Positions 30,061 through 63,881 of a stretch of 64,000 bases of DNA are shown piece by piece. The DNA is from Owenia fusiformis (Eukaryota > Annelida > Polychaeta > Sabellida > Oweniidae), in contig CAIIXF020000004.1 of NCBI GenBank assembly GCA_903813345.2, positions 21,881,985-21,945,984 on the forward strand, read 5' to 3'. How positions within the stretch are numbered: position 1 is the first letter of the stretch; every line of letters starts with the position of its first letter. The position numbers were made by a program, and so were the translations under genes. The notes beneath the pieces were generated by a model. That model saw only the letters and a program-made list of their open reading frames with translations, did not search any database and was not told the origin of the DNA.

Positions 30061-30079
30061 CATATCAAACCTGTCATAC

Positions 30080-32790
30080 AGGCCCACATTTACAAGATTA
30101 GTCTTCCTACTTGACTAATACCTTACTTTAACTATTGTTGTTGAGTGTATCAGACCCATATTTCCAAGATTAGTCTTCCTACTTGACTAATACCTTAATT
30201 TAACTATTGTTGTTGAGTGTATCAGGCCCACATTTCCAAGATTAGTCTTCCTACTTGACTAATACCTTACTTTAACTATTGTTGTTGAGTATCAGACCTA
30301 CATTTCCAAGATTAGTCTTCCTACTTGACTAATACCTTACTTTAACTATTGTTGTTGAGTGTATCAGGCCCACATTTCCAAGATTAGTCTTCCTACTTGA
30401 CTAATACCTTACTTTAACTATTGTTGTTGAGTGTATCAGACCCACATTTCCAAGATTAGTCTTCCTACTTGACTAATACCTTACTTTAACTATTGTTGTT
30501 GAGTGTATCAGGCCCATAGTTCCAAGATTATTCTTCCTACTTGACTAATACCTTACTTTAACTATTGTTGTTGAGTGTATCAGGCCGATAGTTCCAAGAT
30601 TAGTCTTCCTACTTGACTAATACCTTACTTTAACTATTGTTGTTGAGTGTATCAGGCTGTTAGTTCCAAGATTAGTCTTCCTACTTGACTAATACCTTAC
30701 TTTAAGTATTGTTGTTGAGTGTATCAGACCCATATTTCCAAGATTAGTCTTCCTACTTGACTAATACCTTACTTTAACTATTGTTGTTGAGTGTATCAGA
30801 CCGATAGTTCCAAGATTAATCTTCCTACTTGACTAATACCTTACTTTAACTATTGTTGTTGAGTGTATCAGGCCGATAGTTCCAAGATTAGTCTTCCTAC
30901 TTGACTAATACCTTACTTTAACTATTGTTGAGTGTATCAGGTCCATAATTCCAAGATTAGTCTTCCTACTGGACTAATACCTTACTTTAACTATTGTTGT
31001 TGAGCATCAAGCCCATATTTCCAAGATTATTCTTCCTACTTGACTAATACCTTACTTTAACTATTGTTGTTGAGTGTATCAGGCCCACATTTACAAGATT
31101 ATTCTTCCTACTTGACTAATACCTTACTTTAACTATTGTTGTTGAGTGTATCAGGCCCATATTTCCAAGATTATTCTTCCTACTTGACTAATACATTACT
31201 TCAACTGTGTTAACTTTGTTGGATGATGCTATTTACAGACATATTTGGCTGTTCCAAGCAACCCCCTTTCATTTTATACCGGATTTTGGTCTTTAATACC
31301 TTACATCTACTATGTTAGGTGAGTGTATCAGACCCATATTTCCAAGATTATTCTTCCCACTTGACTAATACCTTTCTTTAACTATGTTAGGTGAGTGTAT
31401 CAGGCCCACATTTCCAAGATTATTCTTCCTGCTTGACTAATACTTTACTTGAACTATTGTTGTTGAGTGTATCAGACCCATATTTCCAAGATTATTCTTC
31501 CCACTTGACTAATACCTTTCTTTAACTATGTTAGGTGAGTGTATCAGCCCCATTTTCAAGATTATTCTTCCTACTTGACTAATACCTTACATTTACTTTT
31601 GTAGGTGAGTGTATCAGCCCCATTTTCAAGATTAGTCTTCCTACTTGACTAATACCTTACTTTAACTATGTTAGGTGAGTGTATCCAAGATTATTCTTCC
31701 TGCTTGACTAATACCTTACATTTACCATTGTAGGTGAGTGTATCAGATTCATATTACCCAGTTAATACCTTACATTTACTTTTGTAGGTGAGTGTATCAG
31801 GCCCACATTTCCAAGATTATTCTTCCTGCTTGACTAATACCTTACTTTAACTATTGTTGTTGATTGTATCAGGCCCATATTTCCAAGATTATTCTTCCTA
31901 CTTGACTAATACATTACTTCAACTATGTTAGGTGAGTGTATCCAAGATTATTCTTCCTGCTTGACTAATACCTTACATTTACCATTGTAGGTGAGTGTAT
32001 CAGATCCATATTACCCAGTTAATACCTTACATCTACTATGTTAGGTGAGTGTATCAGGCCCACATTTCCAAGATTATTCTTCCTGCTTGACTAATACCTT
32101 ACTTTAACTATGTTAGGTGAGTGTATCCAAGATTATTCTTCCTGCTTGACTAATACCTTACATTTACCATTGTAGGTGAGTGTATCAGATTCATATTACC
32201 CCAATTAAAAAATAAAACTAATTACCAACTTATTACCAACTAATTTACAACTAATTATCAACAATTCTGCTGGCAATTGGAATTAAAGTTAAGCGTTAAT
32301 TAAAACAATGATAATTATGGCCTAATTATCAGTAGCAAGTTCAACGTAAATTAACTTACAAATGCTGATTTATGATTTTTGGTTGATAATTAAGATATGA
32401 AATGTTTGAGGGTGATAGTAAGTGGTAAATTAAAACGTTTTTGTTCTGAAGTAGATTATTGGTTGATAGTTAACATTAGGTGAGTGTATCCAAGATTATT
32501 CTTCCTGCTTGACTAATACCTTACATTTACCATTGTAGGTGAGTGTATCAGATCCATATTACCCAGTTAATACCTTACATTTACTTTTGTAGGTGAGTGT
32601 ATCAGGCCCACATTTCCAAGATTATTCTTCCTGCTTGACTAATACCTTACTTTAACTATGTTAGGTGAGTGTATCCAAGATTATTCTTCCTGCTTGACTA
32701 ATACCTTACATTTACCATTGTAGGTGAGTGTATCAGATCCATATTACCCAGTTAATACCTTACATTTACTTTTGTAGGTGAGTGTATCAG
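30080..32790 (+). repeat. ~72-bp tandem array ending at a splice acceptor
   Basis: Units contain ccaagattagtcttcctact, tgactaataccttacttt and tgagtgtatcag. Later units read taggtgagtgtatcag, so each has a consensus donor-like AG/GTGAGT and an acceptor-like tatcag. The last unit runs directly into the exon at 32791. A ~270-bp non-repeat insert rich in attaccaact lies at about 32200-32470. Confidence 0.85.
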
Positions 32791-32872
32791 ATCCCAGGTT
32801 GATTGCAGTTGAGTCACAATATCTGGAACCAGAATTCATCAGCCGCGGTGTGTCTACTAGCATGTTGGTGAG
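32791..32872 (+). CDS. CATSPERB-like exon (ESQYLEPEFISRGVST)
   Basis: It starts after tgtatcag (or after gattgcag at 32809; both leave two bases of a split codon) and encodes PRLIAVESQYLEPEFISRG and STSMLV. The donor is GTGAG followed by GTTAAT, chosen because it leaves the two bases that the next exon completes. The copied GTGAG/GTTAAT sequence also occurs in the downstream 69-bp repeats. Confidence 0.6.
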
Positions 32873-35800
32873 GTTAATATTAAACAAATACTGGATGATC
32901 AGGAGCTGGATATGGCAGAATACCTATTCGAGAAAAAATATTGGGCAAGGCGGCAGCCGAGCCTAATATTTTTTCGAGGATAGGTATTCTGGCCATATCC
33001 AGCTCCTGATCATCCAGTATTTGTTTTATTATGCACCTCCCAATCAAAGTTAAGTGGAGTACTTACTGGAGTACAGGCTTAAACTGTCGTTTAGTTGACA
33101 TTATTTTGACATTTATTTATTTTTTCTTTCAAAACTCAGACGACTTCCGGCCAGTTTATTCGCTACACTGGACAAAAATATTTGCCCCAGGGATTTAATT
33201 TTTATTTATTCGAGACGTTCTTGAAGAATTATATGTAACTTTTGAATGATAAGAGTAATTGTGATTGATTAAGTGCATTTTTTCTTCTATTTTCCGCCAG
33301 TTTCAGATGTAAGCTTTTTAAGTAGTACTCCAGTTATTAAGAAATAAAACTCTGAAGTGGGAATGTTGCAAAAACATTGAAAAAAATATCCAACCCTTTT
33401 TCTCGAAAGGGTCAGATATTAAAAAAATATCCGGCAGTTTTCAGAAAAGAGCAGAGTATTGCCAAATTACAAGCAACTAAGAACCAATCAGATTTGAGTA
33501 TTTTAATGAGGTGCATAATAATAAAACATATATCTGAGACACATAAACATGATTATATAAGTGTCCACAAGCATGTTGGTGAGGTTAATATTAAACATAT
33601 ATCTGAGACACATAAACATGATTATGTAAGTGTCCACAAGCATGTTGGTGAGGTTAATATTAAACATATATCTGAGACACATAAACATGATTATGTAAGT
33701 GTCCACAAGCATGTTGGTGAGGTTAATATTAAACATATATCTGAGACACATAAACATGATTATGTAAGTGTCCACAAGCATGTTGGTGAGGTTAATATTA
33801 AACATTCATCTGAGACACATAAACATGATTATGTAAGTGTACACAAACATGTTGGTGAGGTTAATATTAAAACATATATCTGAGACATTTCATGATTTAT
33901 CTTGCTTCAATGAACTAACTGTTTTGAGGAAATAATAAATCGAAAAATGAAAAAGTTGTTTTGTAATGTTTTTATGATTAAGGAGACATATAGAAAAAAT
34001 AAATAAAAATCATAAATATACACATAATGTTATGTCTTCAAAACAGAGGGGTCAGACCATATTTGAAAGAGGGGTGATGATGTTTCTCTCTGAGTGTTTT
34101 TACTTGTATAAGATCAACTCGAAAACAATCGTTTAAAAAATCTCTGATTTTCAGAATACCACGGTAAAGCAGCGACAGTTAGAGCGTCATAGCGATGAAC
34201 CAGGGTGAGAAAGATATGAATATCGGTTGATAATCACTGGGGAATATCCTGACTATGGTAAAGTCAGATACCTTTGTCACAAATGGCGGACATAACCGTC
34301 GCTTCAATTAGATTTTCATGAACTGTATGTTTAATGGAGCACCTAGACTAAATTCCTTTGGAATAACAATCAATCAAAGTGTCTTAATACTCATTGTACA
34401 GTTAATTATATTCTACCATCGAAATAAAGTCTTTAATTTAACCGATCAAAATGAGATACGGGACAACGGACACTTACCATATGCCGTTGTCTTTCTAAAT
34501 TACTCAAAATCAGATTCCGTTGTCATAGACGATATCGAAGACGCTATATTGTGGCGATTCCCGACCCAATTTGATAGAAAATGGGATTTCATATGATACC
34601 TTATCACAAGAGCTTAATGCATGCACAGAATTAGCGAAGATAAAATCCCATGAAATGAAGACCAAGTGATTAAACAGTTGAAGCGACGGTTATGTCCGCC
34701 ATTTGTGACAACGGTATCTGACTTTACCGTAGTCAGGCTGTTCCAGTGTGATAATGGAACCAATAATAAGTATCACAGTCTACGAAATACCTTATATTAA
34801 GGAAGAAAAAACTAAAATCAGAGGGTTTAACTTTGTGGGCTCACCCTGTAGATTAAAACAAGAATGGAATGGAAGATATGCTTGAGAATGACAGTAGTTT
34901 TGAATTCTAATGAATTAAAGCATTTAAATCGCAATGTTTAGACATAATATTGGTAGATACATTAAATGTCTTTAGTAAAATAGATCCATATTCTTATTAA
35001 TAAAATTAAGAGATTTTATATGAAACATGAAACAAAACAAATAATCTAAATGTTTGAATTTCAGTTTTGTCAGTGACAGGTCCATTTAAGATTATTCTTT
35101 GAATACAAAGAATAAATCTGGATTCTTTCCATTCTATATTCTATTTGAATTACAGCTTCAAGTTGACAGGTCCATATAAGAGTATACCTGTATACAAAGA
35201 ATAAATCTGGATTCTTTCCATTCTATATTCTATTTGAATTACAGTTTCAAGTTGACAGGTCCATATAAGAGTATACCTGTATACAAAGAATAAATCTGGA
35301 TTCTTTCCATTCTATATTCTATTTGAATTACAGTTTCAAGTTGACAGGTCCATATAAGAGTATACCTGTATACAAAGAATAAATCTGGATTCTTTCCATT
35401 CTATATTCTATTTGAATTACGGTTTCAAGTTGACAGGTCCATATAAGAGTATACCTGTATACAAAGAATAAATCTGGATTCTTTCCATTCTATATTCTAT
35501 TTGAATTACAGTTTCAAGTTGACAGGTCCATATAAGAGTATACCTGTATACAAAGAATAAATCTGGATTCTTTCCATTTTATATTCTATTTGAATTACAG
35601 TTTCAAGTTAACAGGTCCATATAAGATTATACCTGTATACAAAGAATAAATCTGGATTCTTTCCATTCTATATTCTATTTGAATTACAGTTTAAAGTTAA
35701 CAGGTCCATATAAGAGTATACCTGTATACAAAGAATAAATCTGGATTCTTTCCATTCTATATTCTATTTGAATTACAGTTTAAAGTTAACAGGTCCATAT

Positions 35801-38800
35801 AGGATTATACCTGTATACAAAGTACGAATCTGGATTCTATCTATTCTATACTCCATTTGAATTTCAGTTTCAAGTTGACAGGTCTATATAAGATTATACC
35901 TGTATACAAAGTACGAATCTTGATTCTATCTATTCTATATTCCATTTGAATTTCAGTTTCAAGGTGACAGGTCCCTCTAAAGTTAGAGTGAATACCATAA
36001 CCAAGAATATTGCATGCAAGAACAATATGCAAACTGTGAGTATATTGCATTACCATATTCTTTATTTGTTACCATAGCATCAATGTGCAACAGTGTTATT
36101 AGCTTGCATGGGAAGCATTTCACTTAATCAAAAGTACAAAAAAATGGCAGTCATATATTTTTGACAAAGTCACATGATTTTGTATTCTGTTTTCCTTATA
36201 TGTGAATGCATTTCCTGACTAAAGAGACATGTCAAAGAAAACTTCACTTTTAAAGGCATTTTTTATAACTATGAATTGGAGCTGGTGCATGGGTCCCTAA
36301 AGCTAACATTAAGACCGTGAAATGAGGCTAAATTTTGAAAGTTTGAAGGAGTAGCCTTGCAACAGTCAAACATTTGCAAGAATCCAAAATTTCCACAAAT
36401 CATCTTACCTTACCAAGGAACATCGAGGGAGCATGAAAATGTGCTCTTCTTGCATTGTTAGAGTATGATAAAGCTCAAACCAAAGTTTCTGATAAATATT
36501 TCATGTCCACCCTTTTTCTTGCCGGAACTACTTCTAGACTTCCTGTTATCCTCATATAAGTTTTTATCCCATCGAACGAAGTTCGGAGGGATATAGGGAA
36601 CGCCTCCGTCCGTCCGTCCGTCCGTACGTCCGTCCGTCCGTACGTCCGTCCGTACGTCCGTCCGTCCGTACGTACGTACGTCCGTCTGTCCGTCCGTCCG
36701 GGCAATAACTCAAATACCGTTCGCCCGATTTTATTCATATTTTGTACACATATACCCTATGGGGGTAGAAGTTCTGCTCGAAAGCCAATTTTCAAAATGG
36801 CCGCTCATTTAAAAATGGCGGCAGTAATTTAGGTGCAATATGTAAAACTGTAATAGCAATATGTTTTAAATGTAAAAAAATTATATAGGACATTAATAAA
36901 GCTGGAAATGTAGATATTAAAAAAGCACATGGCAGCCATCTTGAAAAATGGCGGCCTTTACTCGTTGTTTTACGATTTTTCCTGTAACTCGAAAAGTGGT
37001 AGAGCGATTTTCTTCATATTTGGTATGTGAATACGTATAAGCATGGCACACTGTCCAATGACACTTTTGGTAGAGGGCGGTCATTTTTCAAAATGGCCGC
37101 CATTTTAACGTATTTTACTATAACTCGAAAAGTAGTGGAGCGATTTTTTTCATATTCGGTATGTGAATACTGTAAGCATGGCACACTGTCTAATGACACT
37201 TTTGTTTGAAGGTGGCCATTTTGAAAAATGGCGGACATTTTGAAAAATGGCTGCCATTTTGATAAATGGCTGCCATTTTAACTTATTTTACTATAACTCG
37301 AAAAGTAGTGGAGCGATTTTGTTCATATTTGGTACGTGAATACGTATAAGCATGGCACACTGTCTTATGACACTTTTGGTAGAAGGCGGCCATTTTTCAA
37401 AATGGCCGCTATTTTAACGTATTTTACTATAACTGGAAAAGTAGTGGAGCGATTTTGTTCATATTTGGTATGTGAATACTATAAGCATGGCACACTGTCT
37501 AATGAGACTTTTGGTAGAAGGTGGCCATTTTGAAAAATGGCCGCCATTTTAACGTATTTTACTATAACTCGAAAAGTAGTAGAGCGATTTTGTTCATATT
37601 TGGTATGTGAATATTATAAGCATGGCACACTGTCTTATGACACTTTTGGTAGAAGGTGCCCGTTTTGAAAAATGTTCGATGGGATTCGCTACGCTTTGGC
37701 GTTGCCGTTGTTCTGGTTGTGACTTCACCAAGTGGCATGGATTATCACTAGTATACTTTATATATAACAGTATAATAATCATGATAGATACATAATTGAT
37801 GTTTTTTAAATGTAAACAATGGATACATGAGTGAAGATTATTTTGGACTAGAAAATAGTCCCAGCAAACAAAATGGTGGATATGAAATATTTAGAATTTA
37901 CTTTGGTTTGAGCTTTATTATACTCTAACAATGCATGAAGTACACATTTTAATGCTCCTTCAGTGTTCCTTGGTAAGGTAAGATGATTTGTGGAAATTTT
38001 CGAGTCTTACAAATGTGTCTCCATTGCAATCCTACTCCTTGAAATTTTAAAAAGTTATCCTCACTCCACGGTCTCCATGCTAGCTTTAGGGACCCATGCA
38101 CCTCCAATTCATCGTCAAAAAAAATGCGTTTAAATGTGAAGCTTTCTTTGACATGTCTCTTTAGTCAGGAAATGCATTCACATATAAGGAAAACAGAAAA
38201 CAAAATCTTGTGACTTAGTCAAAAAAATATGCCTGCCATTTTTTTGTACTTTTGATTAACTTAAGCGTTACCTCAAAGTGGTTTGTAACCTTTTTAAAAA
38301 AATTTGTGGAGCCACTAAGTAAAATAGCAGATTTCTCTGCACAATGATGTCCAATCAAGATCATTGATGAGTATCTGTGTTCCTGGGATGTTTTGGCATT
38401 CAAGAATGACATTGCTACCCAAAGCAGGCCCGTAGCCAGGGGGGGTTCGAAGGGTTCGGGTGAACCCCCCCCCCCCCTGGCCAAAAATTCTTTCAAAATC
38501 ATGCAGTTTTTGACCATTTTGAGCACTTCTCAAGTGATTTTAGCCTAATTTGCGCCAGAATTGTCAAATGTGAACCCCCCTGGAAATTTTTGAAAATTGA
38601 ACCCCCCCCCTTGGCAAATCCTGGCTATGGGCCTGCAAAGTTTGCACACTATGTTGAAGTAAAGTTTATAAGCCACCTTAATGGATTCATTTTAAAATTT
38701 ACATACAGCTACCAGTTCTATTACTGGAATTACACTATGTGTTTTAAGAAAGTGCGTTTGAGTTTAGCCTGGTTCTAGATTCAGGTGTAATCACAATTTG

Positions 38801-41800
38801 GATTTTAGAAAAAAGTTTTTACAGAAAAATTCATCAAACTATACTTAACACTCTCTAGAGTCCTCAAGTCATGAACCCTTCAATTAAAATTAAGCTTAAA
38901 AACTTTTTCTCTCTGTAGATTGCTCATATGTCAGTCGGATGTCCACCATTCAAGAACATAAGAGTTCAAAAGTGAGACTTTTAGGTAGTTACTAACAGGA
39001 GATGGGGGTTGCCAGATTGATTGTCCTGGATTCTTATATCTTAGATTCATTATGTCACCACCACAAGTGGTGACTTATTGTTATGGTCTCCAATTTTTTT
39101 TACATCGGTCGGGGTTCTGCATTCGGTGTCTGTAACAAATGGCAGGTGGTGACACTTTGCATGTTTATGCCTTGTTACAGCTTGTGTTGGTTTGAATGGA
39201 TTCAAATAAAAAGTAGTAATATGCCATGACTATATAGTCAGGAATTGGAAAGTTTTTAGATTATATAAATCAAAACCCTTTGGCTTTATTACTCTGCAAT
39301 CCATTATTTTGACAGATCCCGTGACAATTCTACTAATAGAGATTTTACATTTTGGCATGCCAACCTAAGGTCCTTACCATGACATGGGTGCACTAAGGTC
39401 CTATCACTTTTGGAAGAGTTTATTTTCATTCAAAAGGTAGTATAGGTGTCAACTTTACATAACAATATTTGAGTTCTAAACTAATTATTTATTCATGACG
39501 TAATCCAATGTATGAATTACACTGTACGAAATGATTACACAGTACATCAACTTATTCCCGGGAACACTCTCACCTGTATGGAACATTTACATATATATCA
39601 ATAATATGACATCTCCCCTTATTAAGTATGTGAGAAAACTCAAGAGTCTATCAAGCATGAATAATACAAAAGCACATTTATATAAACAGTTGAACAGTCT
39701 TTTGAACAGTCTTTTATATCAATGCATCACACTGCATAATATGCTGTAGTGTCAAGTCACTCTGAAGTATAATAAACATATCGATGATTAAAATGCAACA
39801 CACTGCATTATGTCAAATCATATTTCAAATGCAACACACTGCATTATATCAAATCATATTTCAAATGCAACACACTGCATTATATCAAATCATAACTCAT
39901 AATCTGAAGCATGTTTATCATAACATAATGTCAATCAATTAGCATATCTGGCTGGTTTGTTAACCTCTAGTCCTGACCTTGACCTAGTCTGAATGACTCT
40001 CTGAGTAGGTACTGTATTATGTCTGGGTGACATACTGGTACTGGGAACAGTATACTGTGCACTATCTTTAGTGTCACGATACACACTTGTATTGTTTTGA
40101 CTATCCATAGACACATCTACAGGTTTGTGAACTACTGGACTTGATATACCAATCTGTTCTGATGGACCCTGATTTGTGTCACTGTTATGTAAAATTGGTT
40201 TTGACTTACAAAATTTGTAAATCAGATTATCATCATTATGTGGACTTGGACTTCTGGATCTGTGGTATAAGACTGGTTTGGGACTAAATGTACTGGCACT
40301 TCTGACCATAGGACCATTTACACTGGGACTTTTATTACTGGGACTTGGAATTGCCATTATGTGACGCCTGTTACGTCTGTAAGTTCCCTTAGGAGTCTCA
40401 ACAATATATGACCTAGGTGAACTATGTTTACATTTGACAACACCTCTTGTTTTCCATCCCTTTTCCTGGTCAGTTTTCAATAAAACTTGTGAACCCGGTA
40501 CTAGTTCAGTCAAAGGTCTCACTCCATGATGTTTGTCATAATTGGTTTTGTACATATTCTTAGCAGTCTTGTCATTTAAGGCTACCTGTCTGAGATTAGG
40601 CCATTTCGGGTTGAGATTGCTAGGCAGTGTAGGGACTGTAGATTTGATTTGCCTACCCATAAGCAATTGAGCTGGCGATGCTCCAGTCGCAAAGTGAGGC
40701 GTAGCGCGATAAGTTAATAAAGCTAGGTAAGGATCTTCCTGACACAAAATACGCTTCAAAATCTGGACTCCCCTCTCAACCTGACCATTTGCTTGACTAA
40801 AATGTGGACTACTTGTACAGTGAATAAAATTGTACCTTTCCGCAAATTCTTTGAACTCTGCACTGGTAAATTGCGGACCGTTATCTGAAATGCATGTTTC
40901 ACAAACACCGAATCTTGCAAAAATAATCTTCAATCTGTCTATGACACTTTTTGCAGTTGTGTTTTTGTTCATTTTAGCAATTTCCGGATAACGCGAAAAA
41001 TAATCTACCACTACTAGCCAGTGGCAATTTTCATACTCACATAAATCCACAGCTATCTTGGACCATGGACGCTTGGGAAGAACTGTAGGCATCAAAGGTT
41101 CCTTCCTCTGTGTACTTTTGATTGCTTGGCAATGTTCACATTTTTCTATCATGACTTTTATTTGTGAGCTCATACCTGGCCACCAAACTGATTGATTGGC
41201 TCTACTCCGGCATTTTGTAATACCAAGGTGACCATCATGAATTCTACTCAAAATCAAGTTTTGCATACCTACTGGTACGACCACTCTATTTCCATGAGTT
41301 ATTAAACCATTGTATAGGCTCAAAGCACTCCGCTCGGGGAAAAATGGCTTAACAACCGGGGGAACGGACTTGATATTTTCTGGCCATCCATGCGTTACAT
41401 AATCACGCACACGCAGTAATACAATGTCTACATCTGTTTCTACTCTGATTTTCTCAAGCAAATAATCCGCAATCGGTCTAGCACTATCTATCGACGCGAG
41501 ATACTGCTCTATATCTTCATGAGATGTATCAAGAGATTTACCTACCTCTATTGGATCCCGACTAAGCATATCTGCCACATGCATGTCCTTGCCTGGAACA
41601 TATCTAGCAACTGCATTGAAACGCATCAGCCTGATCAACAATCTTTGACATCTAATCGGTACTCTATCTAAGTCTTTGATATTAATCAATGGTACTAAGG
41701 GCTTGTGATCTGTCAATACTTCAAATCGATCGAGACCAATGAGAAACCGTTCAAAACGTTCAGTTGCCCATACCGACGCGAGACATTCTTTTTCTATCTG

Positions 41801-53800: not shown

Positions 53801-56800
53801 GTTTTCACTTTTTCATCCTGAAAATCATCTATGTCAGCTGAAAATTGTCACAATTGAATATTTCCTTGACTGTGATGTCTTCAAGACAATAGAATTGGCA
53901 TCAAACCCTGTCAATTTGCACAATTTGATATTTTAACATGAAAAAGCGTCCAATGAATTGATGCCAAATGAAATTAATGTGACATTAAAAATATGACGTT
54001 TTTTAGCTGAACCGTGTACCAAACAATTCTGTTACCATAGCAACCATAATTCAATAACCAATCATAGTTGAGATACAATATTTGGCCAATAGTTGCACAA
54101 ATATATGTTCTATAGATGTACCAAATATCAAGAAGTATATCCTCAAAATGACAAAGTAAGAGATAAATAAACAGAACTTTTTGACTGACCCAAGTATATG
54201 GATATTGTGGACCCTACCTTCAAGCACAATGTCTATGGTCGTACTGCTGGATCTGATATCAGAGTCAAATATGACTATGTTGTTTTTATATATATAGGAA
54301 TATTGTGGACCCTACGTTCAAGCACAATGTCTATGGTCGTACTGCTGGATCTGATATTACAGTCAAATATGACAATGTTGTTTTTGTAACTATAGGGATA
54401 TTGTGGACCCTACGTTCAAGCACAATGTCTATGGTTGTACTGCTGGATCTGATATCAGAGTCAAATATGACTATGTTGTTTTTATATATATAGGAATATT
54501 GTGGACCCTACGTTCAAGCACAATGTCTATGGTCGTACTGCTGGATCTGATATTACAGTCAAATATGACAATGTTGTTTTTGTAACTATAGGGATATTGT
54601 GGACCCTACATTCAAGCACAATGTCTATGGTTGTACTGCTTGGTCTGATGTAAGAGTCAAATATGACTATGTTGTTTTTATAACTATAGGGATATTGTGG
54701 ACCCTACATTCAAGCACAATGTCTATGGCCGTACTGCTGGATCTGATATGAGAGTCAAATATGACTATGTTGTTTTTATAACTATTGGGATATTGTGGAC
54801 CCTACATCCAAACATAATGTCTATTGCCGTACTGCTGGGTCTGATGTAAGAGTCAAATATGACTATGTTGTTTTTGTAACTATAGGGATATTGTGGACCC
54901 TACGTTCAAGCACAATGTATATGGTCGTACTGCTGGATCTGATATCAGAGTCAAATATGACTATGTTGTTTTTATATATATAGGAATATTGTGGACCCTA
55001 CCTTCAAGCGCAATGTCTATGGTCGTACTGCTGGATCTGATATAAGAGTCAAATATGACTATGTTGGTTTTATATCTATAAGGATTTTGTTGACCCTACA
55101 TTCAAGCACAATGTCTATGGCCGTACTGCTGGATCTGATATAAGAGTCAAATATGACTATGTTGTTTTTATAACTATAGGGATATTGTGGACCCTACGTT
55201 CAAGCACAATGTATATGGTCGTACTGCTGGATCTGATATAAGAGTCAAATATGACTATGTTGGTTTTATATCTATAAGGATTTTGTGGACCCTACATTCA
55301 AGCACAATGTCTATGGCCGTACTGCTGGATCTGATATAAGAGTCAAATATGACTATGTTGTTTTTATAACTATAGGGATATTGTGGACCCTACGTTCAAG
55401 CACAATGTATATGGTCGTACTGCTGGATCTGATATAAGAGTCAAATATGACAATGTTGTTTTTGTAACTATAGGGATATTGTGGACCCTACATTCAAGCA
55501 CAATGTCTATGGCCGTACTGCTGGATCTGATATAAGAGTCAAATATGACTATGATGCATGGGGTTGCCCATCGCCAGCGTTCCACTCAGACTTCTTCATG
55601 CCTATTTTAGAAATGTAAGTATTTGTTAAGATTACTCTATAGATTTTGATTGATTCATAACATATAATTTGAAATATATCTCAGGTCCTACATGAGAGAC
55701 AAAAAAATAGTTCTCGAAAGTTAATCCTGGTAATCTGTTTACATGTCTATCTTGAAAATGTAAGTTTTTATGTCACCACCACAAGCGGTGAAATATTGTT
55801 ATAGTCTCCATTTTTTGTGAATGGTGTCCAGCATCTGTAACAAATGGAAAGTGGTGACATTTTGCATTGTAATGGCTTGTTTGTAGATGGTGTTCGGCAT
55901 CCGGTGGCTGGCAAAACATTTCAGTTATTCTTTCTTATATTCTTGGTCCAGAAAATATTAATGCATGATAACAGCCAATCTATACTTTTTATTATCTAGT
56001 TTCAAGTACAATTCTTTACCAAAATCATTTTTAAATAATTTGTACGTTCTCAATATAGGATAAGTGTTCAAATCATTTTTCCATTTTTCTACAAACAACA
56101 TTTTTAATTTCTTTTCAACCATAGTCACCAGATTTTCAGTATCCAGATTTTGATTATTCCAATAATCTAGTAAATCTTATTTCTAGTAAAAATGTAACCT
56201 TGCAAAGACATATTGGCAAATTCATTTACCATTCATTTAAGAATTTAGCATCATGATGCATTGTACCACACTATTATTGTTACCTTATATATTTTTATAT
56301 ATTTTTTGTATTTTTAGTTTAGTTGGTGTTTTGTAGTTTAGATATGTAGTCTACCATAGTTCTGACTAATGTAATCATGTTATGATACTATATGTCAATA
56401 AAAGTTATATATATAACTGTGATACGATTAAGATTCTTAGCTATGTTTGTGTTGCTGTAAAAATATCATTTATTACAAATTGTAACCTTTGTTTTTTAAT
56501 TCTTGTGCCTATTTTAATGTACATTTGAAATTATACTGCAATTGGTGTAACTTATAAAGTTGATGTGACATGTATTAGAATGTTGTGAGAAAATGTTTTT
56601 AAGCTACTCTGATCAATTTCAATAGATCTTGGCAGAACTCATAATATGTGCACTAACTAGTTCTTCCCAGAAATCATCAAACAAGTTGTCTCTAATTGTT
56701 ATGTCACCACCAAAAAGTGGTGACATTTTGTTATGGTCTCCTTTTTTGTGGCATCAAGTTTTCAGAAGTTCAAATCTGACTTTACATTTAAGATTTGACC

Positions 56801-59800
56801 TTCAATGACCTTTTCAAGGTCAAAAATGTATTTTTCAACTTGCTTCAAATTGACCAATCTTTTTTTCAAAATCATCTAAATTAGTTCTCAAAAGTTCAAA
56901 TCTGACTATAGATTTGACCTTCAATGACATTCTCAGGTCAAAAAAAAATTTGACCTTCAATGACCTTCTCAGTGTCAAAAAGGACTTTTTTCAACTTGCT
57001 TCAAATTGACCAATCCTTTTTTCAAAATCATCTACAAGTTGTCAGAAGTCAAAATCTGATTTGAGATTTGAGATTTCACCTTCAATGACCTACTCAAACG
57101 TTCCCAGGGTCAAAAAAGGTATTTTTTCAACTTGCTTCAAATTGACCAATTTCTTTTACTAAATCATTTACAGTGTTCTCAGAAATTCAAATATGACTTA
57201 TTATTGAACCAATAATATTGTGTGCGACTAGGTGGTGACATGTCATGTTAATGCCTTGTTTATTATAACGCTAAAGGCCCAACCCAAAGTTCAAATCACT
57301 TTAAATTGGCTTATTAATAATTATTTCAAATTTTGCATGGAGCCTATAAATAACTGTACATTGTACATTCTATGTACATTCTATGCCGAAGGATCACTTC
57401 AACTCATAATCAAATATACTCCTATATATTTTAATATTACAGCTATGATGGGGATGTCAACCAAGGTGTACTCCAAGCTGACTATATAATATATGAGAAA
57501 TATAGTGTATTCAAGTATCACTTTACTGAGATGGCCCCTGATTGTACATGTATTAATTGTAATATTACAGCTATGATGGGGATGTCAACCAAGGTGTTCT
57601 CCAAGCAGATTATATAATATATGAGAAATATAGTGTATTCAAGTATCACTTTACTGAGATGGCCCCTGATTGTACATGTATTAATTGTAATATTACAGCT
57701 ATGATGGGGATGTCAACCAAGGTGTTCTCCAAGCAGATTATATAATATATGAGAAATATGGGGTATTCAAATATCACTTTACTGAGATGACCCCTGATTG
57801 TACATATATTAATTGTAATATTACAGCTATGATGGGGATGTCAACTAAGGTGTTCTCCAAGCTGAATATATAGTATATGAGAAATATGGGGTATTCAAGT
57901 ATCACTTTACTGAAATGGCTCCTGATTGTACATATATTAATTGTATGTTAATTTTCCGAAGGATCGCTTCAACTCATAATCAAATATATATATTTTAACA
58001 TTTCAGCTACGATGGGGATGTCAACCAAGGTGTACTCCAAGCTGATTATATAATATATGAGAAATATGGGGTATTCAAGTATTACTTTACTGAAATGGCC
58101 CCTGGGTGTACACATATTAATTGTAATATTACAGTTATGATGGGGATGTCAACCAAGGTGTACTCCAAGCAGAATATATAATGTATGAGAAATATGGGGT
58201 ATTCAAATATCACTTTACTGAGATGACTCCTGATTGTACATATATTAATTGTATGTTAATTTTCTGAAGGATCGCTTCAACTCATAATCAAATATATATA
58301 TTTTAATATTACAGCTATGATGGGGATGTCAATCAAGGTGTTCTTCAAGCAGATTATATAATATATGAGAAATATGGGGTATTCAAATATCACTTTACTG
58401 AAATGGCCCCTGAGTGTACACATAAGCCTCAGACTTGGAGAGAGATGCTTAAGAATGATCCAGATCCATCAACTGCATGGACCAAAAAGGTTAGTTTTAC
58501 TTATAGTACAGGCTAGGGACATTCCAGCGAGGCCTCTTTCTATGACATACCCCCGCACCCGGTATAACGAGACGTATGTGGTACCATTTTGTTCGGTATG
58601 ATGTGAAGTTTTCAGAAACCAATTTTGACATTTTCAAATATGGGTCAGATTCCAGATAATTAGCGCAATGTTACATAATTTATTGTTTTCTATGTTTTTA
58701 TATTTTCAAGGTTTAAAACAGCTATGGTTAGGTTTTTATCAAAGTATAACAACAGATAATGGTGGTAATGCTTTCAGAAAAAATTGATGACAAAATTTTA
58801 AGAAATTTAAAATCAATATTAATCATAATTATGTAATTATTATGTAATAATGTTAAAAAATTTGAAATTAGACGTTGCAAGACACGCTTTAATGCAATAA
58901 ACTGGTTAAACTTCACCAAATACAAAAAAATGAATAAAAGGATGTGATAGTACAATTATTTCCACAATAACATAATTAATATGAGGATATAATATTATGT
59001 AACATATAGAGACTTATAGATTTTCAGTATCTGTTTGCCATACAGTAATCGTTTTATCAGAGTCACTATGCAGAGCTTATGGCCATCCAGATAGGATGGT
59101 CTTGCTGAATGCATTCAACAAGAGGTTATGTGTAGCTAGTTTATTTAATACTTTGTTATCCCACCAAACGAAGGGAGGGATATAGAAAAGCCACCCGTCT
59201 GTCCGTAAGTATGTTTGGGTGATTACTTAAATACCGATTGACATATTTGATTCAAATTTTATAGGCTTATGCCTTATGGGTGTAGGACCTCTGCTGGAGA
59301 AGGAATTATCAATATGACTGCTCATATGGCCACCATTTGTGTAAAAATACAAAAAATCTCAGTGGTATTGAGAAACCTGCCGATGATGGAAATATTGGTT
59401 TTATTAGTGGATGCTGCAATCCATAACTTTGATCAAATCGAAGACACTATTGATGGGAAGGGATCAACACATCCTATGGCCATGGTCTTGTATAAACGAT
59501 CAGAAATTAATAATGATAACAAGGAGCAGAACAGAAAAAACAAGACTTCTCTGGAAGACACAGATATATGTAACTATGAAAACCAAAGGTTGATGAGTTA
59601 AACCAAAAGTGACACCAACACCGAATCCCATTTCATCAAAAGAAAATATAGAAATGATGACAAAGTCCAGTTCATACCACAGGACAATCAAATCTGACCT
59701 GATGTGGAGACTTGTGAGGCATATGAGACAATCAGAAGGCTGAAAGAAGGCCATTTACAGGATGGTAAAAAAAACTTACACCATTTTTCTCATATCTTTG

Positions 59801-62800: not shown

Positions 62801-63881
62801 ATGGCTAGGGACAAAGGAGCAAAGGAGCTTTGCTCATGATGGAACTTTAAGATGGCGGCTGAATTTCAAAATGGTCACCATTTTTTGTAAAAAACCTAAT
62901 CTTTGCTAACTCAAATACTAGTGAATGGATTTTGGTTCAAATTTTATATGCTGATGCCTTAGGACATAGTAGCTCTGTTTGTGAGAATTTTCAAGATGAT
63001 GGTTGAATCTCAAAATGGCTGCCATCTTACGTAAAAAATGTAAACTTTGATTACTCAAATAACAATTTTGAAATTAGTTTAAACTTTATATGTTGATCCA
63101 AGGCACAAATCAGCTCTGCTAAAGAAGACATTTTCAAGATGCCCACTGAATTTCAAAATGGCCGCCATTTTTCATAATAAAACATTGTCTTTGATAACTC
63201 AAATACCAGTTGTATGGATTTTGTTCATATCTTATATGATCTGTTCAAGAAGAAATTTTCAAGATGGCCACTAATTATAAAAAATATGCTTTCTTCGGTG
63301 GGATTTGCTACTCTGTGGAGTTGCTTTTTTCTAGTTGTATTTGATTTATTTATATCATACAGACCCTCTACTTTACCATATGATGTAAAATGTTTTCAGA
63401 ACTATATAAAGTGCAATGCAAACTCCACAAGGCCTTCATACAGACCCTCTACTTTACCATATGATGTAAAATGTTTTCAGAACTATATAAAATGCAATGC
63501 AAACTCCACAAGGCCTTCATACAGACCCTCTACTTTACCATATGATGTAAAATGTTTTCAGAACTATATAAAATGCAATGCAAATTCCACAAGGCCTTCA
63601 TACAGACCCTCTACTTTACCATATGATGTAAAATGTTTTCAGAACTATATAAAATGCAATGCAAACTCCACAAGGCCTTCATACAGACCCTCTACTTTAC
63701 CATATGATGTAAAATGTTTTCAGAACTATATAAAATGCAATGCAAACTCCACAAGGCCTTCATACAGACCCTCTACTTTACCCTATGAGATCCTAAATGC
63801 TGGAAAGAATAACAAGATTCTCTGGGAAGGAGTGAATACCATTCTGGTATTTGAGGCTATTGTTCTGGACCCTGAATATAG
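32791..63881 (+). CDS. CATSPERB-like CatSper channel auxiliary subunit, seven C-terminal-half exons
   Basis: CatSper is the sperm-specific, pH- and ligand-controlled Ca2+ channel of the flagellum; its single-pass subunits (beta, gamma, delta, epsilon) form an extracellular canopy. Exons at 32791-32872, 35957-36035, 38919-38971, 47759-47815, 55474-55613, 58315-58489 and 63724-63881 have GT..AG borders and mutually consistent phases (2, 0, 2, 2, 2, 0). Joined, they give motifs in the order I associate with CatSper beta: VGCPP..NIRV, GCP...F, PQTW, NY..C and PYEILN....ILW..VLDP. From memory the last segments fit CATSPERB better than D or E; I could not align them. The transmembrane segment and cytosolic tail should lie beyond the right edge. 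Upstream ectodomain exons are only tentative. One exon carries a one-base frameshift. Introns hold a retrotransposon, a nested gene and many repeats. Confidence 0.72.
32882..33025. repeat. Foldback with GC-rich loop inserted next to the exon
   Basis: Arms of ~60 bp, left aacaaatactggatgatcag and onward, right its complement, meet at ggcaaggcggcagccgagcc. The architecture is like the foldback at 9996-10132, but the arm sequence is different. Confidence 0.75.
33022..33526. mobile_element. MITE with TTTTATTATGCACCTC ends (~500 bp)
   Basis: The left end ttttattatgcacctc and the right end gaggtgcataataataaaa are inverted. Together with the adjacent foldback it splits a 69-bp repeat array: taatattaaaca at 32875-32886 continues as ataaaacatatatctgag at 33521. 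Confidence 0.6.
33520..33890 (+). repeat. 69-bp donor-edge array (5 units)
   Basis: Each unit contains gtccacaagcatgttggtga followed by ggttaatatt, a copy of the 3' end and donor of the exon at 32791-32872 (gtctactagcatgttggtga then ggttaatatt), plus ~40 bp of intron. It also has an extra donor-like atGTAAGT. The open frame across it (ETHKHDYVSVHKHVGEVNIK repeats) reflects a unit divisible by three. Confidence 0.85.
34241..34744. mobile_element. 504-bp MITE, long form of the family at 12003
   Basis: The ends ggaatatcctgactatggta and the complement ..gtagtcaggctgttcc enclose long subterminal repeats with ccgccatttgtgacaa and cataaccgtcgcttcaa. The plus frame at 34318-34596 (92 codons) has no family I recognise and is probably not a gene. 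Confidence 0.7.
35065..35956 (+). repeat. 89-bp acceptor-edge array (about 10 units)
   Basis: The unit is atttgaattacag plus tttcaagttgacaggtccat and ~55 bp of AT-rich sequence. Its AG and the ~24 bases after it match the acceptor and beginning of the exon at 35957 (tttcaaggtgacaggtccc). The true exon is the last copy. Confidence 0.9.
35957..36035 (+). CDS. CATSPERB-like exon (FKVTGPSKVRVN)
   Basis: Acceptor atttgaatttcag, donor CAAACT followed by GTGAGT. It starts with one base completing Ser from the previous exon and encodes FKVTGPSKVRVNTITKN and IACKNNMQT. Phase 0 at the end matches the next exon. Confidence 0.65.
36123..38261. mobile_element. Long-TIR foldback element (2.1 kb, arms ~400 bp)
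   Basis: The left arm (cttaatcaaaagtac onward) and the right arm (its complement, ending gtacttttgattaa) pair for roughly 400 bp at ~85-90% by eye, including acatgtctctttagtcagga and catgggtccctaaagc in complement. The centre is an ATCCCACCGAAC-family element with its own TIRs. Confidence 0.7.
36566..37685. mobile_element. ATCCCA(C/T)CGAAC-ended repeat element with (CCGT)n and ATGGCGG subrepeats
   Basis: The left end is atcccatcgaacgaagttcg, followed by a (gtccgtccgtac)n tract at 36605-36700, gggcaataactcaaat, and about five ~140-bp units with tataactcgaaaagtagtgg and aaaatggccgccatttt. The right end is ttcgatgggattcgctacg. The ends are inverted. No protein is encoded. Confidence 0.7.
38425..38635 (+). 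mobile_element. CAGGCCC-ended MITE, 5-bp target duplication CAAAG
   Basis: The ends caggcccgtagccagg and cctggctatgggcctg are inverted; CAAAG occurs at 38420-38424 and 38636-38640. The interior has long C-runs and is closely related to the copies at 11532 and 47481. Confidence 0.85.
38919..38971 (+). CDS. CATSPERB-like exon (VGCPPFKNIRV)
   Basis: A strong acceptor (ctttttctctctgtag) and a donor (CAAAA followed by GTGAGA) bound 17 codons plus two bases. It encodes IAHMSVGCPPFKNIRVQ; the VGCPP..(N/H)IRV motif is shared by several CatSper ectodomain subunits. The phase joins the exons on both sides. Confidence 0.65.
39052..39175. mobile_element. Minimal copy of the TGTCACCACC-ended repeat
   Basis: It has both conserved ends (tatgtcaccaccacaagtgg, ttgttatggtctcc; aggtggtgacactttgc, ttatgccttgtta) but almost no interior, showing that the ends alone define the family. 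Confidence 0.65.
39447..39611 (-). repeat. 3' LTR of the Ty3/gypsy element
   Basis: 165 bp, nearly identical to 44282-44446. It is at the downstream end in element orientation and is preceded by the purine tract. Confidence 0.93.
39786..39895. repeat. ~39-bp minisatellite (3 copies) in the retrotransposon 3' UTR
   Basis: Three copies of aaatgcaacacactgcatta plus a tcaaatcatatt segment lie between the gag-pol stop and the 3' LTR. Confidence 0.85.
39935..44215 (-). CDS. Ty3/gypsy gag-pol polyprotein (1,426 aa, single frame)
   Basis: Domain order: gag (about residues 1-200), a Cys/His-rich nucleocapsid-like stretch (about 221-256, two imperfect knuckles), aspartic protease with LDTGAD (351-356), reverse transcriptase, RNase H (SADSSSYGMGA), an HHCC zinc-binding integrase N-terminus (H..H...C..C), and an integrase core with D, D and E in the expected contexts (DLCEYENCHW, SDNGPQF, NGQVERG). 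The RT catalytic box reads IIDD where Tyr or Phe is usual in the first position. Gag and pol are fused in frame, so no frameshift signal is needed. After the integrase is a Ser/Pro-rich tail. No envelope-like frame is present. The element encodes everything for copying itself inside the cell; whether it is active is unknown. Confidence 0.95.
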   Translation of the reverse strand: MMAFRLEPPQAFDVTQPREWRHWRSRFERFQSAANLKVGLENGVASVDLIDDTQVINTLLYCMGPKAETIYKTFVFTEAENKKSFTVVMDKFDRYFTPKVNVIEEQKTFHHMKQSSEENVDSFIRKLYDQADICSFDNTERELLHQFVNGMNNKDLSEKVKIMDYSKLTFAKVIEMARIREHVAPVHLKSETPQNLDDVTRSRRSKRSTTQSKGQSQSAAFKCNKCALTHKPRECGAYGKTCLQCGGMNHYKRCCNKRNQKSMDKRKNIHEILDCDSDQHEDDDYYQAFIGEIVCDDMYPVGDIPKPRFQHDDEPTQDFRVDEVGVIDINNKEPPWVSELSVNGKPIMFKLDTGADVTVMPQCVFESFDKPPVLKPSKVQLKSPGGNVACVGKFSGTIDLDNKRFKTDIHVADMTSDMSLLSRGCAIGMGLVRRVQSIETSSEMYGEIGKIKTDPVKINLKDDAQPYSVSISRRVSLPMMPRVQDKLKKLENLGVISRVTKPTEWCAPMVVVEKKSDPEPRICVDLRNLNKSVKNEKFMLPSAEDLFHKMQGSTVFTTLDASNSFWGLVLDEESSYLTTFMTPFGRYKFNRVPFGLSFASELYQRVMAGILENHEGVENIIDDLIVHGKDKAEHDERLERVMQTLKKVGIKLNKKKCKFRQSRVTFFGHTVTKDGISPSDSNVQAILKLTVPTNVTELRRFLGTANYLAKFIPGMATIAAPLYALLRKEVSFTWELAQQESFDKIKELVTRAPVLAFYDPNKPTIVSADSSSYGMGACLFQEHSNGLKPVCYASRSLNDSEKKYAQIEKECLASVWATERFERFLIGLDRFEVLTDHKPLVPLINIKDLDRVPIRCQRLLIRLMRFNAVARYVPGKDMHVADMLSRDPIEVGKSLDTSHEDIEQYLASIDSARPIADYLLEKIRVETDVDIVLLRVRDYVTHGWPENIKSVPPVVKPFFPERSALSLYNGLITHGNRVVVPVGMQNLILSRIHDGHLGITKCRSRANQSVWWPGMSSQIKVMIEKCEHCQAIKSTQRKEPLMPTVLPKRPWSKIAVDLCEYENCHWLVVVDYFSRYPEIAKMNKNTTAKSVIDRLKIIFARFGVCETCISDNGPQFTSAEFKEFAERYNFIHCTSSPHFSQANGQVERGVQILKRILCQEDPYLALLTYRATPHFATGASPAQLLMGRQIKSTVPTLPSNLNPKWPNLRQVALNDKTAKNMYKTNYDKHHGVRPLTELVPGSQVLLKTDQEKGWKTRGVVKCKHSSPRSYIVETPKGTYRRNRRHIMAIPSPSNKSPSVNGPMVRSASTFSPKPVLYHRSRSPSPHNDDNLIYKFCKSKPILHNSDTNQGPSEQIGISSPVVHKPVDVSMDSQNNTSVYRDTKDSAQYTVPSTSMSPRHNTVPTQRVIQTRSRSGLEVNKPARYAN
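44282..44446 (-). repeat. 5' LTR of the Ty3/gypsy element
   Basis: 165 bp, TG...CA, about one difference from the other LTR. It should hold the element's promoter on the minus strand. Confidence 0.93.
44755..45508. repeat. Large palindrome (arms ~350 bp)
   Basis: The left arm (aattaaggtgctatggaagt ... aaccatgctgga ... gaaaatgtgactgaaaatag) is mirrored by the right arm (ctatttttcagtcacatttt ... tccagcatggtt ... acatagcaccttaaattac) with few mismatches. The arms nearly meet around 45140-45160. It lies just outside the retrotransposon and encodes nothing recognised. Confidence 0.8.
45530..46640. repeat. Degenerate repeats around catactggagaaagtac
   Basis: At least eight copies of a catactggagaaagtac core occur in both orientations at irregular spacing (e.g. 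45611, 45675, 45892, 45971, 46046, 46209). One frame of the core reads HTGES, like the linker between C2H2 zinc fingers, but no Cys-Cys-His-His pattern survives and the spacing is not 84 bp. It may be a shattered zinc-finger gene or only a satellite. The rest to 47480 shows no supported feature. Confidence 0.4.
47481..47682 (+). mobile_element. CAGGCCC-ended MITE, 5-bp target duplication TATAA
   Basis: The ends caggcccgtagctagg and cctggctaagggcctg are inverted; TATAA is at 47476-47480 and 47683-47687. It lies 76 bp upstream of a CATSPERB-like exon. Confidence 0.85.
47759..47815 (+). CDS. CATSPERB-like exon (SCGKLMNSTYVLP)
   Basis: Acceptor tattattttttcag, donor CCCAA followed by GTAAGT. It starts with G completing Lys and encodes NTAPTSCGKLMNSTYVLP. 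The other two frames are closed. The sequon NST suggests an extracellular location. It is not preceded by an array of its own edge. Confidence 0.65.
48052..48470. repeat. ~28-bp minisatellite
   Basis: Units tgtgctgaaccattg and tgtgcttgca(t/c)tg alternate, with a run of the 15-bp part alone near 48120-48200. Frames open on the minus strand (MVQHT.QAHNGSA) follow from the repeat and are not genes. Confidence 0.9.
48471..48862. other. Non-coding gap
   Basis: Nothing recognised; AT-rich. Confidence 0.4.
48863..49182. mobile_element. TA-flanked MITE (320 bp)
   Basis: Inverted ends cagggtaacccaaacaaatc and ..gatttgtttgggttacc..ctcaccctg, with TA on both sides. It ends 29 bp before the stop-codon side of the nested GH43-like gene, so it may form part of that transcript's 3' UTR. 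Confidence 0.7.
49211..50831 (-). CDS. Secreted PAN/EGF/GH43-like propeller protein, two exons
   Basis: Exon 1 is 50831-50576 and exon 2 is 50358-49211 (donor TTTACAG before GTTTGG; acceptor atatattgtag; the split Gly codon joins in frame), giving ~467 residues. An N-terminal signal peptide (MKKILCIFLYCITSFNTFA, from the second ATG) is followed by a PAN/apple-like segment with Cys (TTEECEKECIKQVERCWSY, continuing as GYEGQCFG across the intron), an EGF-like module (C..NLDCSLNGECLDGMCKC) and then a ~300-residue repeat of beta-strands with WGGPVIRDP, AHEPDV and NFHAIFHNMY. The last part resembles the five-bladed GH43/GH32-type propeller of many uncharacterised marine invertebrate proteins. The catalytic acids cannot be assigned by eye. 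Likely role: extracellular glycan binding or cleavage. The gene is complete and nested in an intron of the CATSPERB-like gene, on the opposite strand. Confidence 0.85.
50832..52139. other. Non-coding stretch upstream of the nested gene
   Basis: It should contain the promoter of the minus-strand secreted-protein gene. I see no clear core element and no repeat except a short (TA)n tract near 51650-51680. Confidence 0.4.
52563..52658 (+). mobile_element. 5'-truncated LINE-like 3' tail
   Basis: A short segment with a ggccctaaaagggc hairpin, cagtactaataaaatcc and a (tatta)n end interrupts one 98-bp unit. The layout is typical of 3' ends of CR1/L2-like or Jockey-like elements; the clade is not assignable. 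Confidence 0.5.
52715..54194 (-). mobile_element. mariner element with internally deleted transposase
   Basis: The terminal repeats (cttaggtcagtcaaaaagtt, ~50 bp inverted) are flanked by TA at 52713-52714 and 54195-54196. It inserted into a unit of the 98-bp array, whose sequence continues on both sides. Confidence 0.9.
53035..53781 (-). pseudogene. mariner transposase remnant
   Basis: The N-terminal half is open (53781-53296) with two helix-turn-helix regions and the mariner-type linker region (RRWYNDF..G, DSERTGRPKS). The central catalytic part is missing: the frame jumps from ..QFFDEY directly into DNARPHTS in another frame, so the first catalytic Asp region is deleted. Further frame changes follow before the C-terminal RRRLNEL...DWVERH segment. 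It cannot make an active enzyme. Confidence 0.85.
55474..55613 (+). CDS. CATSPERB-like exon (DIVDPTFKHNVYGR ... GCPSPAF) with a one-base frameshift
   Basis: Acceptor gtttttgtaactatag, donor AGAAAT followed by GTAAGT. The first 29 codons encode DIVDPTFKHNVYGRTAGSD and IRVKYDYDAW; the end encodes GCPSPAFHSDFFMPILE in the next frame. The switch falls at a GGG run (55560-55562); one more G would restore a single frame, giving the expected WGCP motif and the right phase on both sides. This is either an assembly slip in a G-run or a real inactivating change. It is the last and complete copy of the 98-bp array. Confidence 0.6.
55769..55881. mobile_element. Minimal copy of the TGTCACCACC-ended repeat
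   Basis: Both family ends (tatgtcaccaccacaagcgg; aagtggtgacattttgcatt, ggcttgtt) with a ~40-bp interior. Confidence 0.6.
55882..56698. other. Non-coding gap
   Basis: AT-rich unique sequence, no supported feature. Confidence 0.4.
56699..57260. mobile_element. Copy of the TGTCACCACC-ended repeat with half-site satellite
   Basis: The left hairpin end and right end (gcgactaggtggtgacatgt, taatgccttgtt) enclose about four diverged copies of the gaccttcaatgacctt unit. Confidence 0.7.
57385..58314 (+). repeat. 128/180-bp acceptor-edge array (6 extra copies)
   Basis: Acceptors (..atattacag before ctatgatgggg) occur at 57442, 57570, 57698, 57826, 58006 and 58134, and then at the true exon (58314). 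Each copy carries ~108 bases of exon sequence; spacing is 128 bp or, when an extra 52 bp of upstream intron (aaggatcgcttcaactcata) is included, 180 bp. The copies keep coding-like differences, but at least one has a stop (aactaagg, fourth copy). Confidence 0.93.
58315..58489 (+). CDS. CATSPERB-like exon (QADYIIYEKYGVFKYHF ... PQTWREMLK)
   Basis: Acceptor ttttaatattacag, donor ACCAAAAAG followed by GTTAGT; 58 codons after one completing base. It encodes YDGDVNQGVLQADYIIYEKY, GVFKYHFTEMAPEC, KPQTWREMLK and TAWTKK. The spacing of the Ile/Tyr-rich strand, Cys, Gln-Thr-Trp and Trp matches what I recall of the CatSper beta membrane-proximal region. It is the complete, last copy of the array. Confidence 0.75.
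59157..59350. mobile_element. Truncated ATCCCACC-ended repeat
   Basis: tatcccaccaaacgaaggga, the gatatag and ccgtctgtccg segments, then tataggcttatgccttatgg and one atatggccaccatttgt subunit; no right end. Confidence 0.6.
59782..60245. repeat. Inverted-repeat insertion
   Basis: ccatttttctcatatctttg ... acacatttgtacat is mirrored by atgtacaaatgtgtgaaata ... caaagatatgaggaaaatg. It has no coding content and lies within the 3.9-kb element. Confidence 0.6.
60950..61695 (+). pseudogene. Decayed ORF with a GCDTT motif, multi-copy invertebrate family
   Basis: Overlapping frames encode SAAHTLIGCDTTCSFAKIGD, then a ~150-residue part with TLDDLCFILASTTDKP, KPKLWKPEGN and APIELRYLTQIYCKDG, ending in a Cys-rich stretch (CRTNQACRCLLAGL pattern with one Cys lost). 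The HALTGCDTT...F core followed by a Cys-rich tail is a layout I have seen in many repeated, uncharacterised marine invertebrate proteins. Frame changes near 61150 and the missing N-terminus (fragments may extend back to 59360) mark it as broken. Its position between long TIRs suggests it is transposon cargo. Confidence 0.55.
62532..63304. mobile_element. ATCCCACCGA-ended repeat with AAGATGGCGGC subrepeats
   Basis: The left end atcccaccgagggaagttt and right end ttcttcggtgggat are inverted; inside are gggcgataactcaaat and about five ~130-bp units with caagatggc and aaaatggccgccattttt. It stops ~55 bp before the final acceptor-edge array. Confidence 0.65.
63360..63764 (+). repeat. 81-bp in-frame acceptor-edge array (5 units)
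   Basis: The unit is cagaccctctactttaccat, atgatgtaaaatgttttcag and aactatataaaatgcaatgc plus 21 bases, repeated at exactly 81-bp spacing (63360, 63441, 63522, 63603, 63684) with almost no differences. Acceptors for the exon occur at 63399, 63480, 63561, 63642 and 63723. No stop occurs in the exon frame. Confidence 0.95.
63724..63881 (+). CDS. CATSPERB-like exon (NYIKCNANST ... PYEILNAGKNNKILW)
   Basis: It starts in phase 0 after atgttttcag, as the previous exon requires, and ends TATAG followed by GTAATA. It encodes NYIKCNANSTRPSYRPSTLP, YEILNAGKNNKILWEG and VNTILVFEAIVLDPEYR. The PYEI.N....N.I.W and .LDP.Y motifs are what I recall immediately before the transmembrane helix of CatSper beta. 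Using the first of the five acceptors would lengthen the exon to start at 63400 and stay in frame. Confidence 0.75.

Follow-up and report, generated by a model that had tools for sequence, protein, structure and literature searches.

The window, that is, the whole stretch of 64,000 nucleotides analysed, holds six plus-strand exons which, joined by frame and phase, gave one open frame of 228 residues; the gene they form is a CatSper delta/epsilon gene. Exons 4 (55474-55614), 5 (58315-58489) and 6 (63724-63881) were located by their open frame and by matches to the C-terminal domain PF22850. Exon 1 (32791-32872), the first located, was placed by open frame and phase, matched no Pfam or PDB entry by itself, and could also start at 32778 with an alternative acceptor. 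Exon 2 (35957-36035) was placed by frame and phase with a weak collinear alignment. Exons 2 and 4 do not join in phase, and the interval between them was therefore searched for an open exon that would restore the frame. The search gave two candidates, and 38919-38971 was taken as exon 3, since it reads IAHMSVGCPPFKNIRVQ, which we take to resemble a CatSper motif; the joined frame and a weak collinear alignment to CatSper delta were consistent with this choice.

An early three-exon peptide gave matches to CatSper delta and epsilon and to the Pfam entry CATSPERD-E_C. A query made of the window exons except exon 3 and of the next exon, which lies on an unplaced contig, matched the Pfam profile PF22850 with 146.7 bits (E 8.6e-43, cut-off 27.4). 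That next exon fits exon 6 in phase and by look encodes a membrane helix. A solved CatSper delta chain was matched with 93.8 bits and an E value of 1.8e-26 for the strong match downstream of exons 1-3. The end of exon 1 together with exons 2 and 3 was collinear with CatSper delta residues 456-503, just ahead of the strong match. This piece alone scored 2.5 bits (E 680), which is not significant, and exons 1-3 were therefore assigned by frame, phase and order, not by score; exons 1 and 2 as the sole query gave no Pfam or PDB match. Exons further 5' were not located, and a long frame scan in one of the three frames gave nothing useful. A large protein database gave no relative at E 0.001 among 17 candidates. 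The GC content of the window was 35%, and that of five exons was 38-48% against 28-40% in their flanks. A CatSper beta gene was also observed on another contig (L019:2681-6124) as a single intronless frame of 1148 residues, inside which TRF found no array. CatSper in an annelid would be noteworthy, because the word "annelid" is absent from the available main text of a survey of CatSper across animals.

Tandem arrays were found on five of the six located exons, at five of the six acceptors and one of the six donors. The evidence consisted of TRF output for the window, inspection of the raw sequence and copy-by-copy listing. At all five acceptors, the unit spanned the intron end, the AG and the start of the exon, and the working exon was the last copy. 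Each copy held one exon edge only, and the upstream acceptor copies were not accompanied by a donor copy. Tandem arrays of whole alternative exons were considered and rejected, as the copies had only one exon edge. This anatomy confirmed what the first-pass annotation had observed: arrays at the edges of the exons it named with the working exon last, a fifth exon (32791-32872) with both an acceptor array and an array copying its donor, units that differ from array to array, and exons belonging to one CatSper-subunit gene, for which the joint open frame, PF22850 and the CatSper delta chain all spoke. Three of its details stood in part. It gave the exon part of the unit as 25-110 bases; the part common to the units was about 5 to 110 bases, so that the upper end held and the lower did not. 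Its exon list was right for five exons and missed exon 3, which no array touches according to TRF on the window. It called each array private, and this held for the exon 2 array, copies of which were found nowhere else in the genome among the 40 of 373 candidates scored.

The acceptor array of exon 1 (30079-32796) was composed of about 31 copies with 72-, 59- and 54-bp units and ended in GAGTGTATCAG; TRF followed it to 32790, and the last common bases were read by eye. The motif TATCAG was intact in 27 of the 31 copies read from the listing. Moreover, AGGTGAGT, an AG acceptor-like sequence immediately followed by a donor-like one, occurred in 18 copies, all within 30000-32800 (array 30079-32790), and nowhere on the plus strand of the window outside this interval; by their letters, these copies resemble recursive splice points. 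The donor array of exon 1 (33516-33887) was recognised by TRF, sequence and inverted repeats. Its 69-bp units copied the donor sequence GTGAG/GTTAAT, where the slash marks the exon/intron border, and a fold-back element, identified by inverted repeats and its full extent by reading, sat between exon 1 and this array.

The remaining acceptor arrays were each supported by TRF, sequence and listing. The exon 2 array (35074-35974) had ten 89-bp copies with an exon part of about 18 nt and an AG in 9/10 copies. Its copy adjoining the working one was closer to the working copy (0.94) than the inner copies were (0.85-0.90). The idea that the spacer in the 89-bp unit derives from an ancient duplication of the remainder of exon 2 was dropped as too weak, with 5 of 500 shuffles scoring equally high. 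The exon 4 array, with a 98-bp unit (about 80 nt of exon and 18 nt of intron), comprised an upstream piece (52123-52543) and a main part (54195-55553), with 18 copies and an AG in 14 of them. The array was split by a transposable element at 52713-54196 with 189-nt inverted ends and minus-strand protein fragments, presumably mariner-like. The exon 5 array (57428-58424) had seven copies with 128- and 180-bp units, and the exon 6 array (63355-63788) five copies of 81 bp, open throughout in the frame of the exon; the AG was present in every copy of both (7/7 and 5/5). Arrays lying in introns only were also present, at 39791 and 48054 in the window and at the control loci L052, L061 and L064.

The genome (498 Mb) was searched by gene family, with P450, myosin heads and dynein heavy chains as controls. 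For P450, no array touched a match at the loci of 30 of the 106 matches, the nearest being 135 bases away. The four dynein stretches, which covered 33 of 56 matches, contained no edge array, and a borderline 28-bp pair starting at a donor in L067 was left uncounted. For myosin heads, 14 stretches chosen for dense exons covered 62 of 92 matches, and five edge arrays were found in three of these stretches, corresponding to three genes. One gene (L051) had a donor array of four 34-bp copies with 100% identity, another (L053) a donor array of four 41-bp copies, and the third (L059) a donor array (83 bp, seven copies) and two acceptor arrays (91 bp, 12 copies; 260 bp, four copies). Two of these genes lie on C4, 3-5 Mb from the CatSper gene, and one on C7. 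In addition, the gene about 15 kb downstream of exon 6 carried two 88-bp copies spanning the acceptor, the start codon and 24 coding bases beyond it. Its product (L010:6084-6500) is a small cysteine-containing peptide (MKVFTGLLTLML...), secreted by look. Arrays at L020, L028 and L045 were inspected and judged to lie away from exon edges, and two arrays in L061 were intronic by reading. In a myosin heavy chain region at C9:37986009-37994334 (minus strand), one and the same portion of the head (profile about 18-84) was matched 12 times at separate sites, which looks like a large tandem series of alternative exons.

The position of the arrays was compared with random placement. Between 29900 and 64000, five of 12 arrays ended inside an exon at most one unit from its edge, a count reached in 2 of 200,000 random placements; the 12 arrays were TRF output merged by hand, and on inspection one of the five was lengthened by 6 bases. 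A count based on five exons and on the TRF ends as given put four of 11 arrays at edges, which was reached in 14 of 100,000 placements. The exon-edge placement in the CatSper gene is thus not by chance. In the myosin stretches, five of ten arrays were at edges. When each array was placed at random inside its own stretch, at least five fell at edges in 464 of 200,000 trials; under a looser null, with placement over all stretches, this happened in 484 of 50,000 (P 0.01 only). The exon list behind these counts was filled in by eye at places where arrays stood out, which favours the test. Coincidence, with some arrays meeting exons by accident because the genome is rich in repeats, is in keeping with this looser null and with the many other repeats of the window, both coding and dispersed, but the count in the CatSper gene leaves it a vanishingly small probability. 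An assembly artefact, that is, one copy repeated in error, might be suspected from arrays with identical copies such as the 34-bp myosin array. However, the copies in the CatSper gene differed from one another, in part by common and in part by private changes, and their arrays had higher-order periods and contained inserted elements; the pattern also recurred in unrelated genes, so an artefact is extremely unlikely.

Only two of the five myosin edge arrays were on profile-matched exons, and the control rate was therefore 2/125, compared with 5/6 exons in the CatSper gene (Fisher P 4e-7); the control items were not quite alike, as some P450 loci may be entire genes and others single exons. The chance that some control stretch holds at least three of the five arrays was 0.04, so clustering of edge arrays by gene is suggested but not proven. 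The first-pass annotation had suggested testing whether the gene is an outlier, and against the control exons it was. It had also proposed a mechanism specific to the locus. The excess over the controls speaks for such a mechanism; however, arrays of the same anatomy in myosin genes on both C4 and C7, one gene having three, and in the nearby gene leave it unsupported, and amphioxus, in the available parts of the reports, has such arrays in several genes. A mechanism peculiar to the CatSper gene or its locus is accordingly judged very unlikely. The statement that no such system had been described was also wrong, because amphioxus mirages, which have the same structure, are known. Overall, the interpretation offered with the confirmed observation was partly supported and mostly failed; its other suggestion, a tolerance of multiple splice sites, would fit the sequence.

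Mirages have been described gene by gene in lancelets. According to the available parts of PMC3087553, minisatellite-like duplications of intron-exon boundaries occur in two amphioxus globin genes (BflGb6 and BflGb9), and earlier Adh3 cases, named mirages, are cited. The same parts give units of 10-72 and 150-160 bp with splice signals kept in many copies, RT-PCR results suggesting regular splicing, length instability, and a proposal that mirages are a source of new introns. The seen portion of PMC3902484 adds amphioxus PGBD5 and cites troponin C. As far as these texts go, amphioxus mirages are homogenised inside with the end copies left out, and their length varies between haplotypes or somatic cells. 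The arrays found here were similar in having a tandem unit across the exon-intron border, in affecting both 5' and 3' borders (donor arrays at exon 1, L051, L053 and L059), in keeping AG or GT in many copies, and in a unit length of 34-128 bp for most, although the 180- and 260-bp units exceeded 160 bp. They differed in number, with up to about 31 copies in an array and six arrays in the gene, and in a host that probably belongs to another phylum, since lancelet genomes have a higher GC content and more chromosomes; our literature search found no report of mirages outside lancelets. Furthermore, the coding bias described below is absent from the mirage descriptions in the parts available. Intron gain by tandem genomic duplication in potato RdRp (PMC4974935, as far as its available text goes) is likewise a within-gene tandem duplication bearing on splicing; unlike there, no new intron was seen here, and the copies lengthen an existing one. 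The array type was thus already known from amphioxus, and the new point is the coding bias among the upstream copies.

If the upstream copies were dead, variation would be expected to be even across codon positions. Changes were counted in the arrays of exons 2, 4, 5 and 6 and the myosin 91-bp array, with the working copy omitted and each minor allele counted once; the donor arrays and the exon 1 array were not part of the count. In the exon parts of the upstream copies, 23 of 46 changes were silent compared with 11.1 expected (neutral 11-12), with P about 1e-4 (1.2e-4; 5.5e-5), or 6.4e-4 with a transition weight of 4. Codon positions 1 and 2 had a variation rate of 0.087, compared with 0.27 for position 3 and 0.21 for the intron part, and the difference between positions 1 and 2 and the intron part was significant (Fisher P 0.002). 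The bias held whichever single array was removed (P at most 0.002), and the silent share was alike in variants common to at least two copies (14/28) and in singletons (9/18). These 46 events, drawn from five arrays, are the whole basis of the bias. The exon 2 array alone had one silent change of three. The exon 4 array had 9/21, or 13/43 when two dropped copies were included, one truncated and the other at the transposon edge, with one of the two out of register. An indel kept the myosin 260-bp array out of the count; its copy pairs showed 0-5 silent and 1-6 replacement codon differences.

The working copies themselves were also compared. Working exon 4 had no private change among the 17 copies compared, whereas exon 5 had two silent ones at third positions and exon 2 one replacement at a first position; from these private changes, working exons 5 and 2 are therefore not plain members of the pool. 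One upstream copy of the myosin acceptor array (L059:5773-5860) contained clustered codon changes, five silent and four replacement, as if a patch had been taken from another coding sequence, and no source of it was found among the loci examined.

We read the coding bias as a sign of continuing exchange between the copies and the working exon, which would leave changes made under selection mixed with changes free of it. If the copies were themselves used in splicing, with upstream acceptors giving alternative exon starts and protein length variants kept by selection, the same bias would result. The AG intact in most copies points the same way, as does the exon 6 array, whose units leave the frame open, so that splicing to an upstream acceptor would lengthen the protein by 27 residues per copy. 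A minisatellite of the human interferon-induced gene 6-16 reportedly has multiple splice donors, with repeats used as alternative donors. The likeness is that each tandem unit holds a splice site, but the copies here are known as sequence only, whereas donor use is reported there. Use of the copies is harder to square with the 89-, 98- and 128-bp units, which shift the frame, and with upstream acceptor copies that have no donor copy; in addition, amphioxus mirages are reported without disturbed splicing in the parts available. This explanation is hence considered improbable.

Most probably, the arrays are mirage-type minisatellites of exon borders which grow by slippage or unequal exchange, have only the last copy spliced, and exchange sequence with the working exon. 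The process would start in the germ line with the tandem duplication of a short segment that straddles an exon edge, and the row of copies would then expand and contract by slippage or unequal exchange. The splicing machinery would pair a donor with the nearest acceptor, or an acceptor with the nearest donor. Because the nearest sites pair, the gene would stay functional: the copy continuous with the remaining exon sequence would be the only one used, and the others would remain intronic. The working copy would stay in the exchanging pool; for this reason, it would give rise to further copies and might, with time, be overwritten by them. The composition step from exon to flank given above is a candidate cause of the preference for borders.

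On a tentative reading, which we consider possible but doubtful, the intronic copies form a living reserve that rewrites exon edges by exchange or conversion, exon edges are a favoured birthplace of minisatellites across phyla in some animal genomes, and sperm-surface genes collect the most. If the reserve were real, the coding sequence at borders would be repeatedly rewritten from linked spare copies. The earlier record, in the available texts, treats mirages as a proposed route to new introns; dense and recent mirages in another phylum as well would indicate that exon borders are more generally prone to this kind of mutation. A mirage-rich species would allow direct tests of how the arrays originate, as well as of spliceosome choice among near-identical sites and of feedback from the copies into the protein.

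Other coding features were also seen in the window. The long intron that separates exons 3 and 4 contained a gene-like set of minus-strand frames (49214-50864). The neighbouring minus-strand frames at 1-4048 and 27833-28848 contained long coding repeats, with 134 copies of 30 bp in a Thr/Ser/Pro-rich frame and nine copies of 111 bp in the second frame.
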